Shown: positions 6,065 through 19,684 of the stretch, piece by piece
How the letters are laid out: every line of letters starts with the position of its first letter
Position numbering within the stretch: the stretch's first letter is position 1
NCBI GenBank assembly: GCA_947457925.1
Contig: CANGYA010000023.1
Location: forward strand, 1 to 32,097
Direction of reading: 5' to 3'
Origin: Cytophagales bacterium
Lineage (GTDB): Bacteria; Bacteroidota; Bacteroidia; Cytophagales; Thermoflexibacteraceae
Length of the DNA: 32,097 bases
Position numbers and translations under genes: made by a program
Notes under the pieces: model-generated
Told to the model about the DNA's origin: nothing
Seen by the model: the letters and a program-made list of their open reading frames with translations, nothing else
The model's database searches: none

Positions 6065-7150
6065 ATGCAGCACTTACTCAAAAAAATAGGCTTTTTATGT
6101 GCATTCTCTTTGCCTCTTACCGTAGTTGTTGGTTATTATATGGGGGCTTGGTGGAATTATAGCAATATTGTGTACGTTTTCGTACTTATTCCTCTTTTAG
6201 ATGAATTATTGGGGAAAGACCAGCATAATTTATCGCCAACCGAAGCCACTGCTGCCACACAAGACAATTTTTTTAATGCCGTATTGTATGCGTGGGTGTA
6301 CGTACAAGTAGCTTTTTTGCTTTGGAGTGCCTACGTAGTAAGCACAGATACACTTTCTACGGCAGCTTATATTGGTTTTTGCGTTAGTGTGGGCTTGGTT
6401 ACAGGTGGCGTTGGCATTACGGTAGCTCACGAATTGGGGCATAAAACAGCTTATTTTGACCGTCTGCACGCAAAAATATTGTTGATGACTGTTTGTTATA
6501 TGCACTTTTACGTGGCTCATAATCGTGGGCATCATGTTTGGGTAGCCACCCCAAAAGACGCAGCTACGAGCCGTTTGGGAGAAAATTTTTATAGCTTTTG
6601 GCTAAGAACCGTAGTGGGCAGTTGGCAGGAAGCATGGGATTTGGAAAAAGAAAGACTACATAAAAAAAACAAAGGTGTTTGGGTTTGGGAAAATGAAATG
6701 CTCAAAGCAATGATTTTTCCTCTCTTGTTTGCTGGTAGTATTTTTGTAGTATTGTCTGTATGGCAAGGTGTTATAGCGTATGAATGGTTATTGTTTTTTG
6801 TTTTTCAAAGTATTATAGCTTTTTCTCTATTAGAATTGGTCAATTATATAGAACATTACGGTATTTTACGCAAAGAACTTGCCCCAAACAAATACGAAAA
6901 AGTCAATCCTTTACATTCTTGGAATGCGAATCAACTGTTGAGCAACTTGTTTTTATTCCAACTACAAAGACATTCAGACCACCACGCCAACGCCTTGAAA
7001 CCTTACCAAACCCTCAATGATATGCCCGACAGCCCACAACTGCCCGCAGGTTATCCTCTCATGATTTTGACGGCTTTGTGTCCGCCTTTGTGGTTCAAAT
7101 TAATGAATCCAAGACTGCAACAATGGAAAATGTCGCAACAAGTAGGTTGA
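6065..7150 (+). CDS. alkB: AlkB-type membrane di-iron monooxygenase (alkane 1-monooxygenase family)
   Basis: A 361-residue integral membrane protein with several hydrophobic spans (about 8-27, 32-45, 75-93, 100-120, 214-232, 238-256). The full histidine signature of the AlkB family is visible: HELGH at 122-126, HNRGHH at 152-157, NYIEHYG at 260-266 and QRHSDHH at 301-307. These residues hold the di-iron centre that adds one oxygen atom to the terminal carbon of an alkane or alkyl chain, using electrons from rubredoxin. Sequence around the boxes (HHVWVATPKDAATSR, LQRHSDHHANALKPYQTL) is very close to classical AlkB. No rubredoxin, rubredoxin reductase or alcohol dehydrogenase lies nearby, so redox partners must be encoded elsewhere. 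The real substrate could be alkanes or other alkyl chains. Confidence 0.88.
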   Translation: MQHLLKKIGFLCAFSLPLTVVVGYYMGAWWNYSNIVYVFVLIPLLDELLGKDQHNLSPTEATAATQDNFFNAVLYAWVYVQVAFLLWSAYVVSTDTLSTAAYIGFCVSVGLVTGGVGITVAHELGHKTAYFDRLHAKILLMTVCYMHFYVAHNRGHHVWVATPKDAATSRLGENFYSFWLRTVVGSWQEAWDLEKERLHKKNKGVWVWENEMLKAMIFPLLFAGSIFVVLSVWQGVIAYEWLLFFVFQSIIAFSLLELVNYIEHYGILRKELAPNKYEKVNPLHSWNANQLLSNLFLFQLQRHSDHHANALKPYQTLNDMPDSPQLPAGYPLMILTALCPPLWFKLMNPRLQQWKMSQQVG

Positions 7151-7170
7151 GAAATGCTTGAATACCTACC

Positions 7171-12239: not shown

Positions 12240-12450
12240 GTAAATAGTTAGCAAGGCGGAGAAATTAGGGCTGTTGTTTTTTGTTAAAGTGCAAGGGTTA
12301 TTTTTTCCATTTGTTCTTTGGAAACTTTTATTTTTATCGGCAAAGCATTGATTTATAGGCTTTTTAAGTAACATAAGAAAATTTCTTGTTGGATTGTTAA
12401 AATATTAAACCGTGGTATTGGGTGTTCATATAAAGAAGTATTTGTAAAAT

Positions 12451-12497
12451 TGCTACGTTTTGTATGTAGATTTAAACGTAGCAAAAAATTAGGTTTG
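12451..12497 (+). promoter_or_regulatory. Putative controller operator and promoter of the restriction operon
   Basis: A perfect 10-bp inverted repeat TGCTACGTTT (12451-12460) / AAACGTAGCA (12474-12483) with a 13-nt spacer lies directly upstream of a -7 box TAGGTTTG (12490-12497), 14 nt before ATG 12512. No -33 TTTG sits at the normal 19-21 nt, which would suit activator-dependent transcription. The segment 12454-12475 matches 14657-14678, upstream of the methyltransferase, at 20 of 22 bases, including an identical TACGTTTTGTATG. Confidence 0.55.
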
Positions 12498-12511
12498 CTT
12501 AAAATTTCTAC

Positions 12512-12736
12512 ATGGAAAAAGATAGTTTATTAGTTCTTTTTGGTAACAAAATAAGAGAGGAAAGACTAAAACGTAATCTGTCTCAAGAAGATTTTGCAGA
12601 ATTGACAGGGTTTCACCGTACTTATATTGGTATGGTAGAAAGAGCAGAACGGAATGTAACTTTATTGAATGTAGAAAAATTTGCAAAAGCACTACAACTA
12701 CCCTTAAAAGACCTTTTAAACTTCGATGCTTCCTAA
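12512..12736 (+). CDS. XRE-family HTH protein, probable restriction-modification controller (C protein)
   Basis: A 74-residue protein that is essentially one Cro/C1-type HTH domain. Helices run from about residue 8 (FGNKIREERLKRNL) through the HTH core SQEDFAELTGFHRTYIGMVERAERNVT (24-50) to the last helix (NVEKFAKALQLPLKDLL). Size, and its gene overlapping the nuclease start by 11 nt (ATG 12726 lies before its stop at 12734-12736), are typical of C proteins that time restriction after methylation. Coupled translation with the nuclease is likely. It would bind the shared sequence found upstream of itself and of the methyltransferase. DNA binding is confident from the fold; the controller role follows from context. 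Confidence 0.85.
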   Translation: MEKDSLLVLFGNKIREERLKRNLSQEDFAELTGFHRTYIGMVERAERNVTLLNVEKFAKALQLPLKDLLNFDAS

Positions 12737-13757
12737 AAAAGAATTGATTACCATACAAGACAATGAACAAAAAATAAAAAATTTTTTGCAAGAAATTGTC
12801 ATTGCTCCAAGAAAAAACATTGAAAAATGGGCAAAAGAAACAGGACAAACTGCAGGATTACGAATTGGTTATATTGGACAACATTTAGCTTCTTTGGTAG
12901 TCGGCATGAAAGGTACAAATACAGGTGCAAGAGGAAAAGACATCATAGATGGTTCAGAGGTAAAATCTTGTTATCGTATAGACCAAGTTGATACTTGTAA
13001 AGACTGTAAAAGAGGTGGTTATAAAAAAGAAGACGCAAGGGTTGTACGTTATGAAACAAAATGTCCTCGTTGTGGGTCGAGCAACATTAAACGCAATAAT
13101 GATTCTAAGTGGCTATTTTCTATCAGAAATGAGGACGAGTATAAGGACTTAGTGAATAATACTGAAAGAATTATACTTGTATTGGGTGACTATCCCGAAT
13201 TTGATAGCAAAAACTTTAACAAGTTACGTTTTCAAGTGTTTGAAATATGGGTTCAATCTGAAAGAAGTAAAGTTTTTAAACAAAGAATAGAATATTATTA
13301 TGAAAAAGTTTACTTACCTGATAAACAAAGGTATGAGAAAAAAGACAAAAATAGTCCGCCTGCTCCTGAAAATTTTTATCCTGACAAAATACCTTTCTTT
13401 TTCTCCAATCCTGTACTAGTATTCTCTTGTATAATTGATGAGGAGAATAATATTAACATTGAAAAATATGTTCAGCCTCATACAGATAGAACAAGTGAGC
13501 CTTATATTTCCGTACCAACTAAATTATTTACCCCTGATGATATAAAAAAATATTTTATACAAATTGAAGATGATTTGTTCTTACCACTACTGAAAAATGG
13601 AAGAAGTGATTTAGAAAAATTGAACCAAGTTTTAAAGTCAAAAGAATTAAAAAAAACTAAAATAGTTGAATTACTACCATTTATTAATAAAAAAATTTGT
13701 GATAAAATGGTAGAATTAGGCTTTAAACCTGTATTAATTTCGGAAGATGATGATTAA
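12726..13757 (+). CDS. Type II restriction endonuclease, MamI-like
   Basis: A 343-residue protein resembling the MamI restriction endonuclease family as I remember it (MamI cleaves GATNNNNATC). The N-terminal part contains RIGYIGQHLASLVVGMKGTNTGARG (46-70), then KDIIDGSEVKSC with Asp72/Asp75, Glu78 and Lys80 as candidate PD-(D/E)xK catalytic residues. A zinc-ribbon-like motif follows: Cys91-x2-Cys94 and Cys113-x2-Cys116. NNDSKWLFSIRNEDE (124-138) also looks conserved. The C-terminal half is likely specificity or dimerisation. It is encoded as the second gene of an operon with the controller, and its 3' end overlaps the convergent methyltransferase by 35 nt. Composition is more AT-rich than neighbouring housekeeping genes, consistent with transfer. 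Specificity is not read from sequence. Confidence 0.75.
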   Translation: MLPKKELITIQDNEQKIKNFLQEIVIAPRKNIEKWAKETGQTAGLRIGYIGQHLASLVVGMKGTNTGARGKDIIDGSEVKSCYRIDQVDTCKDCKRGGYKKEDARVVRYETKCPRCGSSNIKRNNDSKWLFSIRNEDEYKDLVNNTERIILVLGDYPEFDSKNFNKLRFQVFEIWVQSERSKVFKQRIEYYYEKVYLPDKQRYEKKDKNSPPAPENFYPDKIPFFFSNPVLVFSCIIDEENNINIEKYVQPHTDRTSEPYISVPTKLFTPDDIKKYFIQIEDDLFLPLLKNGRSDLEKLNQVLKSKELKKTKIVELLPFINKKICDKMVELGFKPVLISEDDD

Positions 13758-14649
13758 ACATCCCTTGTGGTTCTACTGTTTCCTTTACTCTTTCAACAAT
13801 AATTTGATGATAGTTTTCATCTAATTCAATCGTAATAAACTGTCGGTTTAGAGCTAAACAAGATAAAGCAGTAGTACCACTTCCGCCAAAAGGGTCTAAA
13901 ACTACATCATTTTCATTGCTACTTGCTTGTATAAGCCTTTTAATCAATTTCATTGGTTTTTGTGTAGGGTGAAACCTTTTCTCTTGATAAAAATCTATAT
14001 CTCTCCATACATCTGTAATCCCCATTTGAGCATTAAAAGTTTGCGTTATTTTTTCATACGGAATATTAAATTGTAAAATCTCTTGTAACTTTTCCCAAAG
14101 TTCAAATGTAGGCACTTGTTCGCAAATATTATTTCCTGTATAAATACTCCACATTCCACCTCCATAACTGGCTACACCAAGAGCCTCATTTATTTCCTTT
14201 GAAGATAACTTTAATGCTTTTTGCCTTTCCTTTAATGTTTTTTTGATAAATGGCTTACTATCTTTTATGATAAACAAACAACTTTCTGTAACATTTGGAA
14301 ACATCTTGTAATTCTTTGTAGCCCTACCAGAAACAGCACGCATACCTTTATCTATCATAATTTGTTGGCGAAGTTCTAAGCCTAATGTATCAAAATAAGG
14401 TACAAGCAGAGCCAATGTACGAAAATAACCAAATAAATAAAATGAGCCTCCTTTACGTAATACACGACTTGCCTCTGTAATCCATTTAATAGACCAATCT
14501 ATATAATCTTGTTCAGTTCTCCATTGATAATCCCACTTTTCTCCTACTACTTTCCAATAAGGAGGGTCAGCAATTATTAAATCTACACTTTCATCTTCTA
14601 TGAATTTTAGATATTCTAAACAATCTCCTAAAATAATATTTTGCTTCAT
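13723..14649 (-). CDS. Beta-class DNA methyltransferase of the restriction-modification system
   Basis: 308 residues from ATG 14649. Motif IV ADPPYW (27-32) comes before the SAM-binding motif I LDPFGGSGTTA (about 251-261), the beta-class order of N6-adenine and N4-cytosine methyltransferases. DPPY favours N6-adenine. FHPTQKPMKLIKRLIQAS (about 222-239) is the usual motif X region. The stretch between about 80 and 215 would hold target recognition. The longer start at 14700 was rejected because a good promoter and the shared operator (14657-14701) lie inside that extension, and the family starts at the KQNIILGDCLEYL strand. It should protect host DNA at the sites cut by the adjacent nuclease. 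It converges tail-to-tail with the nuclease gene, overlapping by 35 nt. Confidence 0.9.
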   Translation of the reverse strand: MKQNIILGDCLEYLKFIEDESVDLIIADPPYWKVVGEKWDYQWRTEQDYIDWSIKWITEASRVLRKGGSFYLFGYFRTLALLVPYFDTLGLELRQQIMIDKGMRAVSGRATKNYKMFPNVTESCLFIIKDSKPFIKKTLKERQKALKLSSKEINEALGVASYGGGMWSIYTGNNICEQVPTFELWEKLQEILQFNIPYEKITQTFNAQMGITDVWRDIDFYQEKRFHPTQKPMKLIKRLIQASSNENDVVLDPFGGSGTTALSCLALNRQFITIELDENYHQIIVERVKETVEPQGMFNHHLPKLIQV

Positions 14650-14656
14650 TTTTTGA

Positions 14657-14701
14657 TACGTTTTGTATGCAAATTTAATCAATAAAAAATTAATAACCAA
14701 A
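14657..14701 (-). promoter_or_regulatory. Methyltransferase promoter overlapped by putative controller operator
   Basis: On the minus strand: TTTG (14701-14698), 19-nt spacer, TAAATTTG (14678-14671), a full Bacteroidota promoter match. Predicted start near 14664, 15 nt before ATG 14649. The shared sequence 14657-14678 includes the -7 box and the start point; its core has ATAC-N5-GTAT symmetry (14656-14668). A protein bound here should block transcription. Confidence 0.6.
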
Positions 14702-15912: not shown

Positions 15913-15944
15913 TTGTTTTCCAATACGCTATTTGTTTACCTTTG
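15913..15944 (+). promoter_or_regulatory. Promoter of the T9SS cargo gene
   Basis: TTG (15913-15915), 21-nt spacer, TACCTTTG (15937-15944), matching the Bacteroidota consensus. Transcription would begin near 15951, 17 nt before ATG 15968, which also excludes the in-frame ATG at 15932 as the start. Confidence 0.6.
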
Positions 15945-15967
15945 TGCCAAAATTTAAGACAGGCAAC

Positions 15968-18900
15968 ATGAAAAAAAGGTATTTGTTATTTGTACTCTTA
16001 TTATTATTGTCAAATTCATTGGTAAATGCCCAAACAGTCGTAAGTGGTATCATTAACAATTACGTAAGGGTTACGGCAATAGACGTAGCCAATAGCACCC
16101 TGACAGTAGAAAGCACAACGGGCATACAAAATTGTAGTATCATTCTCATCGCACAGATGAAAGGGGCTACCCTTTCCACTGCCAACGACACGACTTTCGG
16201 CAGGGTAAACAGCTACAACTCCGCAGGCTTGTACGAAAGAGCCATTATAGACTTTGTAGATGTGGGCAACCGAAAACTCTTTTTAAGACATAAATTAGTC
16301 AATACCTATAACGTGGCAGGGACAGTACAAGTAGTTACCGTACCCCAATACACCAGTATAGACATTACAGGCACACTACAAGGGAAACCGTTTGATGGGC
16401 AAACAGGCGGTATCATCGCCTTAGAAGCCACAGGGACGGTTACGGTACAAGGTATCATAGACGCAACAGGTATTGGTTTTAGAGGCGGAAAAGTAAATAC
16501 CAACGCAGCTTGTAGCAGCAACGAAGCCTCCAACTTTGCCTACGACATTACTTTGAACAATGCAGGGCAAAAAGGCGAAGGCATTTTTGACCTCCCCAAC
16601 ACACAAGGCAGTGGCAAAGGACGCAATGCCAACGGTGGCGGTGGCGGTGCTTGTTTGAATGGCGGCGGCGGCGGCGGTGCAAGTTTTGGTGCTGGTGGTT
16701 TGGGTGGTCGCAGCCCTTTACATCTCGGTAATTCGGCATTGGTAAGTGGTATCGGTGGACACAACTTAGCCTATAACAACCAAAACCGTTTGTTTTTAGG
16801 TGGTGGCGGTGGTGCAGGCCATCAAGATAATTCAGCAGCAACAGATGGCGGAAATGGTGGCGGTATTGTCTATATTGTGGCTAATCAATTAGTAGGTGGC
16901 GGTATCATTAATGCAAGTGGTTTTGAGGCTGCCAATGCAGGTACAGACGGTGCTGGTGGCGGTGGCGGTGCAGGTACAATAGCTCTCAATATTACCAACA
17001 GACCTATTTTAGTGAATTTATTGGCAAGAGGGGGCAATGGTGGTAACAACATTGCGGTTGTGAGTGCAGCCAACCAATGTTTTGCAGCAGGTGGCGGTGG
17101 TGGTGGCGGTGCTGTGTTAGTCAATGGTAGTGCTAATTTAACAGGCATTACAGTAGCTTTGCAAGGTGGTGGTGCAGGTAGAATTACCAACATAGCCTCA
17201 CAATGCTCTGGTACAACACATGGAGCTACGGCAGGCACAAACGGAAGTGTGATTGGCGTAAGCACATGGACAGTGCCACAAGGTACAACCGAACAGTTAT
17301 TATTAGATATTACCGTTACTACTACAGCAGCAGCTTGTGCAGATACCCAACAGGGCTTCACAGCTACCAATATAGCAGGCGTAAGCTACCAATGGCAAAG
17401 AAATGGCGAGGACGTACCCAATGCCATAGGCGTAGGGTTCAATGCTACAGAGTCAGGTGTGTACCGTTTGCGTGCAAGTTTTGGTTGTAAAGTCTTTTTC
17501 TCCCCTAATTTCCCTGTCAATATCAAAAATACGCCTATTGCGTTTGTTATCGGCAATACGGTACAAGGGGTATGTACGGGTGGAACAGGTACTTTTTTAC
17601 AAGCTACCCAAGTAGCAGGTTACACGTACCAATGGCGAAGGAATGGTACGAATGTAGCAGGGGCTACCAACGCCTCTCTTTCGGCTACCCAAACAGGCGA
17701 ATATGATGTAGTTGTTACAGGTTGTGGGGGCAGTGCCACTTCTAATAAAATCAACTTAGTAGCTTCTTTGGCTACTACAGTGCCTACGATTGTGGGAATT
17801 TCGGCTGTTTGCCCCAATAATACTGTCCGTTTGCAAGTCAATAACCATATAGCAGGTAGCATTTATCAATGGCGTTTTAACGGCATAAATATCACAGGTG
17901 CTAATGCACCATTTTTAGAGGCTACACAAGTAGGAGCTTATACAGTAGCTAATTTGTCATCTTGTAATACAGATTTTTCTGCACCCTTCTTATTAGGTTT
18001 AGGCGAAGGAATTACGCAAGCTGTGATTGCAGGTAGCCCTTCTATTTGCCCAAATAGCACAAGCACCTTAAGAGCTACCAGAGCCGTAGGAGGTACATAT
18101 ATTTGGTTTAGAAATGACACCATCATTGCAGGAGCTACAACAGAAAATTTAGCCATTGGACAAGCAGGTCGTTATGTGGTACAAATTACAGATGCGTGTC
18201 GCAAAACCTATCTGTCTGCCCCATTTATCGTACAAACTACGACTATCAGTCAGCCATTTGTACGTGGGCAAGGCTTGTTGTGCCAAGGTCAAGCCCCATT
18301 GACTACGCCTCGTATTCCTAACTACCGTTACCAATGGTATCAAGGGGGAGGAGCATTACCCAATGCTACAGATACCATTTACGTAGCCAGAGCAGCAGGT
18401 AGATACACCGTAGAAGTAACAGATACTTGTGGACAAACTCGTATGTCGCCTATTTTCTTTGTCAATGACGATAACTTGGGCAATTCTACCCTATCTATCA
18501 CTGCCAACCGACAAGTAGTATGTACGCCGAATGATAATATTAGAATAACTGCCAACACAGATGCCGTCAATGCTACTCTACAATGGCAACGCAACGGTGC
18601 AGACATTCCAAATGCTACAGGCAATATTTATACAACTAATGTAGCAGGTACTTATACCGTAAGGCTAAGAAATTCTTGTTCTACCTTAACTTCTTCGCCT
18701 TTGGTGATACGTCAAGGGACATTGCCCGAAGCCGTTATTACAGGGGCAAATACATTTTGCGTAGGCACAAGTACCATGTTACGTACCAATGCAGGTGATA
18801 ATTTGAGTTATCAATGGTTTTTGAATGGTGAACCGTTGAACGGTGCTATCAATGCCCAAATTCCTGTCTTTACCGCAGGGTCTTATACAGTGCGTATTGT

Positions 18901-19684
18901 GAACGCAGATGGTTGTGCGACTGTATCGGCTCCTTTTGTTACTACCTTAAGTAGTGTGGGTACACCGACTATTAGCCAAAGCCGTACTATTTGTGTAGGC
19001 GACAGAGTAAATCTTTTTGCCCAAGCACAAGGGGCTGTAAAATATACATGGACTCCTGCAACAGGCTTAAACAACCCAAACATAGCTACGCCTGTAGCCA
19101 CCCCTACACAAACTACTTTATATACCGTAAAAATGGAAAACCAATTTGGTTGTTTTGTAGAAAGGCAAGTGCGTATAGAAGTGATACCAGCTATTACGGC
19201 AGATTTTGAGATAACAACCAATACGCAATGTGGAGATAAAACAACCATAAAGCTAACCAGTAAAATTACAAATATCGAAGCCTTTGCAGATGTCGTATGG
19301 TCTATGGGCAACGGTGATACATTAAGAGGCACTACTCCGCCTATTTATACTTACAACCAAAGTGGCACCTACAGCATCACCTTAACCGTAAACAATAGAG
19401 TATGTAGCCAAACTGTTAGGAAGTCTGTAGAAGTAGAAAATTTAGACATGGGCAACGTCATCACGCCGAATGAAGACGGTAAAAATGACAAGCTCATCAT
19501 AGACACACCGAATGAGGGCTGGAAATTGAAGATTTTTGACCGTTTCGGTAGGTCTGTTTACGAATCTGAAAATTATGATAACTCTTGGGGAGAGAGAATG
19601 CCATCAGGTACTTATTTCTACCAACTTGTTTCCCCAAAAAACAAAGAATGTACAGGTTGGTTACAAGTCTTATCCACGTATTAA
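15968..19684 (+). CDS. Large T9SS-secreted Gly-rich / Ig-like surface protein
   Basis: 1238 residues from ATG 15968. A signal peptide (KKRYLLFVLLLLLSNSLVNAQ) is followed by a domain of about 180 residues, then a glycine-rich region (about 221-404) with several runs of 5-7 Gly, likely a disordered or polyglycine-helix-like stretch. Seven Ig-like repeats of about 75-85 residues follow (about 450-1030). Each begins with a YQWxxNG-type strand (YQWQRNG, YQWRRNG, YQWRFNG, YIWFRND, YQWYQGG, LQWQRNG, YQWFLNG) and contains ATxxGxYxxxV with paired Cys. A PKD-like domain (about 1105-1155) precedes the CHU_C/gliding-motility C-terminal domain (about 1160-1238: NVITPNEDGKNDKLII, FDRFGRSVYES, PSGTYFYQL), the type-B sorting signal for type IX secretion. 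Probably an adhesin or matrix protein; its ligand is unknown. Confidence 0.88.
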   Translation: MKKRYLLFVLLLLLSNSLVNAQTVVSGIINNYVRVTAIDVANSTLTVESTTGIQNCSIILIAQMKGATLSTANDTTFGRVNSYNSAGLYERAIIDFVDVGNRKLFLRHKLVNTYNVAGTVQVVTVPQYTSIDITGTLQGKPFDGQTGGIIALEATGTVTVQGIIDATGIGFRGGKVNTNAACSSNEASNFAYDITLNNAGQKGEGIFDLPNTQGSGKGRNANGGGGGACLNGGGGGGASFGAGGLGGRSPLHLGNSALVSGIGGHNLAYNNQNRLFLGGGGGAGHQDNSAATDGGNGGGIVYIVANQLVGGGIINASGFEAANAGTDGAGGGGGAGTIALNITNRPILVNLLARGGNGGNNIAVVSAANQCFAAGGGGGGGAVLVNGSANLTGITVALQGGGAGRITNIASQCSGTTHGATAGTNGSVIGVSTWTVPQGTTEQLLLDITVTTTAAACADTQQGFTATNIAGVSYQWQRNGEDVPNAIGVGFNATESGVYRLRASFGCKVFFSPNFPVNIKNTPIAFVIGNTVQGVCTGGTGTFLQATQVAGYTYQWRRNGTNVAGATNASLSATQTGEYDVVVTGCGGSATSNKINLVASLATTVPTIVGISAVCPNNTVRLQVNNHIAGSIYQWRFNGINITGANAPFLEATQVGAYTVANLSSCNTDFSAPFLLGLGEGITQAVIAGSPSICPNSTSTLRATRAVGGTYIWFRNDTIIAGATTENLAIGQAGRYVVQITDACRKTYLSAPFIVQTTTISQPFVRGQGLLCQGQAPLTTPRIPNYRYQWYQGGGALPNATDTIYVARAAGRYTVEVTDTCGQTRMSPIFFVNDDNLGNSTLSITANRQVVCTPNDNIRITANTDAVNATLQWQRNGADIPNATGNIYTTNVAGTYTVRLRNSCSTLTSSPLVIRQGTLPEAVITGANTFCVGTSTMLRTNAGDNLSYQWFLNGEPLNGAINAQIPVFTAGSYTVRIVNADGCATVSAPFVTTLSSVGTPTISQSRTICVGDRVNLFAQAQGAVKYTWTPATGLNNPNIATPVATPTQTTLYTVKMENQFGCFVERQVRIEVIPAITADFEITTNTQCGDKTTIKLTSKITNIEAFADVVWSMGNGDTLRGTTPPIYTYNQSGTYSITLTVNNRVCSQTVRKSVEVENLDMGNVITPNEDGKNDKLIIDTPNEGWKLKIFDRFGRSVYESENYDNSWGERMPSGTYFYQLVSPKNKECTGWLQVLSTY

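Follow-up and report, generated by a model that had tools for sequence, protein, structure and literature searches.

The locus described here is very probably a type II restriction-modification system with a MamI-like nuclease, placed under a C (controller) protein that would act by Esp1396I-type logic on Bacteroidota promoters. It lies in a 32,097-nucleotide stretch of a Cytophagales genome (contig CANGYA010000023.1), referred to below as the window. One type of box takes the place of the -33 element before the controller gene and adjoins the -7 box of the methyltransferase gene. The parts themselves, their spacing and their conservation in related loci are read from sequence.

Genes of the locus and its relatives

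The locus comprises three genes:

12512 to 12736, + strand: C (controller) gene, 74 residues, Cro/CI-type helix-turn-helix (HTH) protein (open reading frame list, domain search and PDB comparison)
12726 to 13757, + strand: R gene, RE_MamI-family nuclease, 343 residues (PF09567, E 5e-33)
13723 to 14649, - strand: M gene, N6_N4 methyltransferase with a DPPY motif (PF01555, E 8.9e-44)

The R product scores 114.8 bits against PF09567, for which the cut-off is 25. With the methyltransferase gene adjacent, the locus is classed by its sequence as a putative MamI-type restriction system. MamI recognises GATNNNNATC. The ATG of R overlaps the 3′ end of C by 11 nt on the same strand, and the two genes would form one operon with C in first position. 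M is convergent with C/R, and the 3′ ends of M and R overlap by 35 nt, as the preliminary description had stated and the open reading frame coordinates bear out. The start of M is taken as the ATG at 14649, although a TTG also lies upstream at 14700. From this ATG, the N terminus reads MKQNIILGDC and resembles MKREIILGDC of the homologue in locus L009.

The 74-residue protein had been proposed as the controller, and its sequence indicates that it is a C protein of the type II restriction-modification controller family. It matches HTH_3 with an E value of 1.2e-14, and its closest PDB sequences are C.BclI (2e-13) and C.AhdI (4e-13), followed by C.Esp1396I (1.4e-6). Residues R36, T37, Y38 and R47 align with the DNA contacts R35, T36, Y37 and R46 of C.Esp1396I.

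Two other features of the window were noted by eye. Two C-x2-C pairs (CKDC ... CPRC) encoded at 12990-13080 form a possible zinc-binding insert in the nuclease. A 1250-residue open reading frame at 15932-19684 (+) contains glycine-rich stretches and Ig-like repeats, ends in a C-terminal tail of the gliding type and probably encodes a secreted surface protein.

Three overlapping genome sets were searched for homologues of C: the class (395 genomes, 41 with a match), the order (291 genomes, 38 with a match) and the phylum (395 genomes, 42 with a match). Viral contigs contributed 10 loci. A set of 71 loci was built from 60 of the 91 distinct class and order matches, the 10 viral contigs and L009; the matches left outside it are mostly weaker ones, and some of them are among the later rows. 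L083, in which C is cut by the contig end and its start mis-called, and L124, a near copy of L123, were dropped. Twelve of the remaining 69 loci, with a best box scoring below 8 (L039, L082, L085, L086, L106, L113, L118, L127 and L135-L138), were also dropped to leave 57. By eye, some of the 12 carry C-box-like sequence of other classes (e.g. L106 and L137), and in L113 the C start is mis-called, the box lying at +60 of the called start.

For the phylum matches, 20 stretches were taken, and the later rows number 50, some genes being read twice. No box at score 8 was present in 35 of the 50. Thirteen of the 15 rows scoring 8 or more are counted below as further loci. The two left out (L168_2 and L201_2) represent a single gene that was read twice; its residue 47 is Q, and for Q the residue rule given below is silent on base 5. 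Three of the 13 are not new wide reads: L186 is co-resident in an already sampled genome, and L181 and L075 come from short flanks. HRTYIG C-like proteins of another branch of the phylum, several of them in pairs, were seen at L168/L201, L170/L203, L176/L211 and L205; no C-box was found with this matrix before the best-matching gene at these loci.

Searches with the C protein recovered far more related loci than those with the nuclease, which gave one homologous locus in genome contigs, none in plasmids and one in phages. A PF09567 search of the 395 genomes gave a match in four, three of them above the cut-off and one the window's own. C/R and M genes are also convergent in L009, L015, L107, L115, L078 and L105. 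A more distant MamI-like nuclease with a convergent methyltransferase was observed in L014 (MT836270.1, 4986-7155), an unverified phage scaffold from human stool. In L014, R is not preceded by a C-like gene, and neither R nor M carries a TAC-N5-GTA box; its M gene is preceded by an HTH-like open reading frame (6880-7155, -).

Promoters and operators

The two promoters of the window contain the following elements:

12452 to 12469, + strand: OL, distal C-box, GCTACGTTTTGTATGTAG
12466 to 12469, + strand: GTAG within the C-box, at the place of the -33 TTTG, 20 nt before the -7 box
12474 to 12484, + strand: OR half-site, AAACGTAGCAA, which repeats the outer arm of OL in inverted orientation
12490 to 12497, + strand: -7 box of the C/R promoter, TAGGTTTG, 38 nt after the start of OL
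14655 to 14669, - strand: OM, predicted C-box of the M promoter, CATACAAAACGTATC on the - strand, adjoining the -7 box and lying over the expected start site
14670 to 14677, - strand: -7 box of the M promoter, TAAATTTG
14698 to 14701, - strand: -33 box of the M promoter, TTTG, with a spacer of 20

The promoters share a 26-nt direct repeat (12450-12475 and 14653-14678) that is identical at 23 of 26 positions. It extends the likeness reported earlier between 12454-12475 and 14657-14678, which was reproduced at 20 of 22 positions, and both copies run beyond the box into AnATTTAA. When the two 110-nt promoter regions were randomised by a first-order Markov model and the best 26-nt match on either strand was taken, none of 3000 pairs reached 23 (mean 16.9, maximum 21). 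The 13-mer TACGTTTTGTATG is exact at 12454-12466 and 14657-14669 and, as had been observed, occurs nowhere else in the window. No further copy with up to two mismatches was found in the window; about 1.9 chance matches are expected at that level, so only the exactness of the match is telling. Genome-wide, the exact 15-mer GMTACGTTTTGTATG is confined to the two promoters in the 4.86-Mb assembly, and the one site with a single mismatch lies inside an open reading frame read as SmpB. The box pattern with up to two mismatches has 69 genome sites, compared with 43 for the reversed control. When the window is scanned with a matrix derived from distant loci, OM comes first and OL fourth, with scores inside the range of randomised windows. 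The box score alone therefore proves little, and the case is made by position and conservation.

A candidate C-box with dyad symmetry stands upstream of C. It forms part of an inverted repeat, 12450-12460 with 12474-12484, which is perfect, as first described, and 11 bp long rather than 10. OR is a half-site in the window. Its inner half is not recognisable (best matrix score in 12468-12500, -6.5), and fuller versions occur in relatives such as L015, L087 and L195. The -7-like boxes of the preliminary description are present at both promoters (12490-12497, +; 14677-14670, -), and its view that the C/R promoter lacks a -33 box holds, since GTAG of the C-box occupies the TTTG place. Its placement of the shared sequence at the -7 box and expected start of M needs adjustment. 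The 22-mer does lie there, but the operator in the strict sense (14655-14669) directly adjoins the -7 box, which makes up the rest of the 22-mer. The box at M is reversed relative to transcription.

A box is found in 48 of 50 upstream regions of HRTY[IV]G-type C genes, near copies L123 and L124 included, a count that is no evidence by itself because the matrix was fitted on the same regions. What counts instead is the position of the -7 box. Counted from the beginning of the box, TAnnTTTG starts at exactly 38 nt in 27 of the 57 loci, and 38 of them have TTTG at the corresponding place. Among the remaining offsets between 18 and 61, none has TAnnTTTG in more than one locus or TTTG in more than two. 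The further loci with a box have TAnnTTTG at 38 in 6 of 13 cases. None of the 38 C promoters has TTTG at the -33 place, and 37 have GTnG of the C-box at a spacer of 20. In 13 of the 38 this is GTTG, which keeps a TTG within the C-box, so the -33 of the family is degenerate rather than absent. A weakened -33 held inside the C-box at fixed spacing is the arrangement of an activator that does the work of this element. The same arrangement is seen in a named plasmid of Dyadobacter fanqingshengii outside the training set, with a BglII/BstYI-type nuclease: OL is followed at the 38-nt distance by TAGGTTTG, and a box with a lower score (13.2) abuts TTTG at M.

Around the start, a box scoring 13 or more is present in 25 of 39 methyltransferase candidates and in 6 of 191 other open reading frames. 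The 25 include the near-identical pair L123/L124 as well as L027 and L099, in which divergent genes flank the box, which is the C-box itself. By their coordinates, the six others owe their score to these same boxes of an overlapping or neighbouring frame or, in L110, to that of a methyltransferase missed by the motif pattern and linked to M by BLAST. Fourteen of the 39 candidates have no box at score 13, and some of these are doubtful or have mis-called starts (e.g. L119). Outside the C upstream regions, 33 boxes occur in the 431,025 bases of the 69 loci. Nineteen of the 33 directly abut TTTG, and three further M boxes, in L009, L015 and L091, nearly do so. A TTG lies 19-21 nt before the -7 box in 13 of the 19 M promoters and at none of these spacers in the other 6. 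The M box, which covers the expected start immediately after the -7, has the layout of a repressor site. Position and conservation point to OM as a third operator at the M start site.

The M box also follows the class of the C-box in its own locus, at base 5 in 21 of 22 loci and at base 10 in 20 of 22. L119 departs from this at both bases and L111 at base 10. When partners were shuffled among these 22 loci (19 abutting and 3 near-abutting), a procedure that leaves kinship between loci in place, about 13 of 22 agreed, and the observed values were reached in 1 (base 5) and 0 (base 10) of 5000 shuffles. The methyltransferases with a box are of DPPY, DPPW, SPPY and C5-like kinds by motif, so the box stands before unrelated genes. 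In L108, whose C is near that of the window, an M box identical to the window's letter for letter precedes a C5-like methyltransferase. Comparison of the MamI-type loci, suggested in the preliminary description, shows the box at both promoters in six of the seven that have a C gene. The seventh, L105, has a good OL and no box at M. A general lack of the shared box in homologous loci, which that description had named as counter-evidence, is not what this comparison shows.

Proposed mode of control

Opposite control of the two promoters through one operator type, as originally proposed, is supported by the promoter layout and by the relatives, and the Esp1396I scheme is alike. The box replaces the -33 at C, and most of the M promoters examined combine a -33 with a box downstream of the -7, as activation and repression, respectively, would need. 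Binding by C, the sign of each effect, the start sites and the occupancy of OR are predicted from this layout. On entry into a cell, M would be made at once from its full -33/-7 promoter. The C/R promoter would initially be weak, because the C-box occupies its -33 position and has GTAG there instead of TTTG. Bound at OL, which begins 38 nt before the -7 box, a C dimer would then replace the -33 and recruit RNA polymerase, and C and R would rise after a delay. Accumulating C would fill the weak OR and limit its own synthesis, and would fill OM over the M start site and lower M. Self-limitation is the weakest step, as OR is only a half-site in the window.

The same box would also be found at both promoters if C were a plain repressor that limits expression without activating either gene. 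This is unlikely. Many Cro/CI-type HTH proteins do only repress, and such a role would suit the 13 of 38 C promoters that retain a TTG where the -33 belongs. A repressor, however, has no need of a 38-nt spacing kept to the base. TTTG is moreover missing at the -33 in all 38 C promoters, whereas the M promoters have TTG there in 13 of 19, and PMC4041747 describes C.Esp1396I as an activator of C/R.

That the shared 26 nt are a relic of duplication or recombination between the C and M promoters, with no binding function at M, is highly improbable. Such a relic could extend past the box into AnATTTAA, as the two copies do, but the box at M is reversed relative to transcription, and the same kind of box precedes other methyltransferase families with other flanks. 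The agreement of M box class with the C-box of the same locus also argues against a relic. Chance resemblance in AT-rich DNA has a negligible probability: the unexceptional matrix scores for a 32-kb window and the 1.9 expected occurrences of a 13-mer with two mismatches are outweighed by a promoter match that no randomised pair reached and by the conservation of the box in relatives. Activation of C/R and repression of M by C is the reading we prefer.

In Esp1396I, the C protein activates C/R and represses M through a distal OL, a proximal OR and an OM at the M start site, and the genes are convergent (PMC4041747, PMC3758141). The window shares with it a putative C-R operon convergent with M, a distal OL, a predicted OM at the expected M start site and the contact residues equivalent to R35, T36, Y37 and R46. 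It differs in its box core, TAC-N5-GTA instead of GAC-N5-GTC, in its Bacteroidota -33/-7 promoters, in its MamI-type nuclease and in having OR only as a half-site. The likeness to C.BclI and C.AhdI, the closest PDB sequences, concerns the proteins only. The C protein of Kpn2I represses M transcription, as predicted here, but it binds within the C gene, where the site serves as a roadblock to elongation of C (PMC6237814), whereas OL lies upstream of the -7 box. HsdC of Mycoplasma gallisepticum, too, is of the C type, regulates a restriction operon and has a box of its own; that box, unlike ours, consists of direct repeats, (GTGTTAN5)2, and belongs to an hsd operon (PMC5282649), listed as type I in PMC12707154.

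Our literature search returned no report pairing TAnnTTTG with restriction-modification and, judged by titles, no related work on MamI with a controller. Sorokin and co-workers reportedly surveyed C-protein sites in 2009, and some of the box classes may have been published before. The control scheme is known from Esp1396I; the Bacteroidota-promoter form, the fixed geometry and the residue rule described next are the added content.

Box specificity and co-resident systems

Two residues of C vary with two bases of the box. Residue 47 is R with C at base 5 in 25 of 27 cases and K with A in 26 of 30. At residue 34, F goes with T at base 10 in 16 of 17 cases, and where another residue is present the base is A in 37 of 40. 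In all 13 further loci, bases 10 and 5 are as predicted from residues 34 and 47. We know of no earlier description of the link between F34 and a box base. The link between R or K and base 5 is structurally sensible, since R46 of C.Esp1396I contacts the G of GTC (PMC4041747), which corresponds to the mirror-half C at base 5. In a poorly resolved tree built from 56 columns, at least 8 changes occur at residue 47 and at least 5 at residue 34, and the well-supported branches hold one usable pair for each residue. With so few well-supported independent changes, shared descent may still lie behind the rule.

A second C-controlled system is present in the same genome (G000:C96, 5590-7359; L002 and L016). 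Its C protein is 62% identical to that of the window, its nuclease belongs to RE_ScaI, and it has the same gene order with a convergent methyltransferase. The box is of class TAA..TA[AG]T, with GCTAACTATAATATG at C and GCTAATTTTAGTATG at M, and GCTAAYTWTARTATG of this system has no exact copy in the genome beyond its C and M promoters. Mutual exclusion has been described for C proteins that belong to one specificity group (PMC3874152, PMC12707154). Among co-resident systems with a box at score 8, none of 10 pairs differs at three or fewer of 15 box positions, compared with 33% of between-genome pairs, a null that leans towards this result because it counts likely orthologues between genomes. 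Permutations gave as few close pairs in 74 of 5000 cases and as large a mean distance in 415 of 5000. These box sequences are no more than suggestive of an avoidance of like boxes within one genome.

Some relatives carry an additional box at C itself. In L088, L089, L110, L114, L119, L193 and L197, an inverted third box abuts the -7 box at the start of C, and in L090, L091, L093, L095, L194 and L199 it is shifted by two bases. The seven loci with the abutting third box also have the upstream boxes and, mostly, the M box. Where present, a third box would allow C to repress its own gene directly, in the manner proposed for M. No such operator is found in the window, the best score in 12484-12515 being -8.0.

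These observations lead us to propose, tentatively and at somewhat less than even probability, a portable cassette common to many C-controlled restriction systems of Bacteroidota. It would consist of a C-box substituting for the -33 at a fixed 38 nt before the -7, an inverted box set against the -7 of any M and sometimes a third box at the start of C. Residues 34 and 47 would set the box and sort systems into compatible groups, and systems would reside together only with differing boxes.

C proteins determine whether an incoming restriction system kills or protects its new host. If the two-residue rule holds, compatibility between C-controlled systems might be readable from sequence. To our knowledge, few worked examples exist of activators at the Bacteroidota -33/-7 promoter, and the locus family offers a natural set of candidates.
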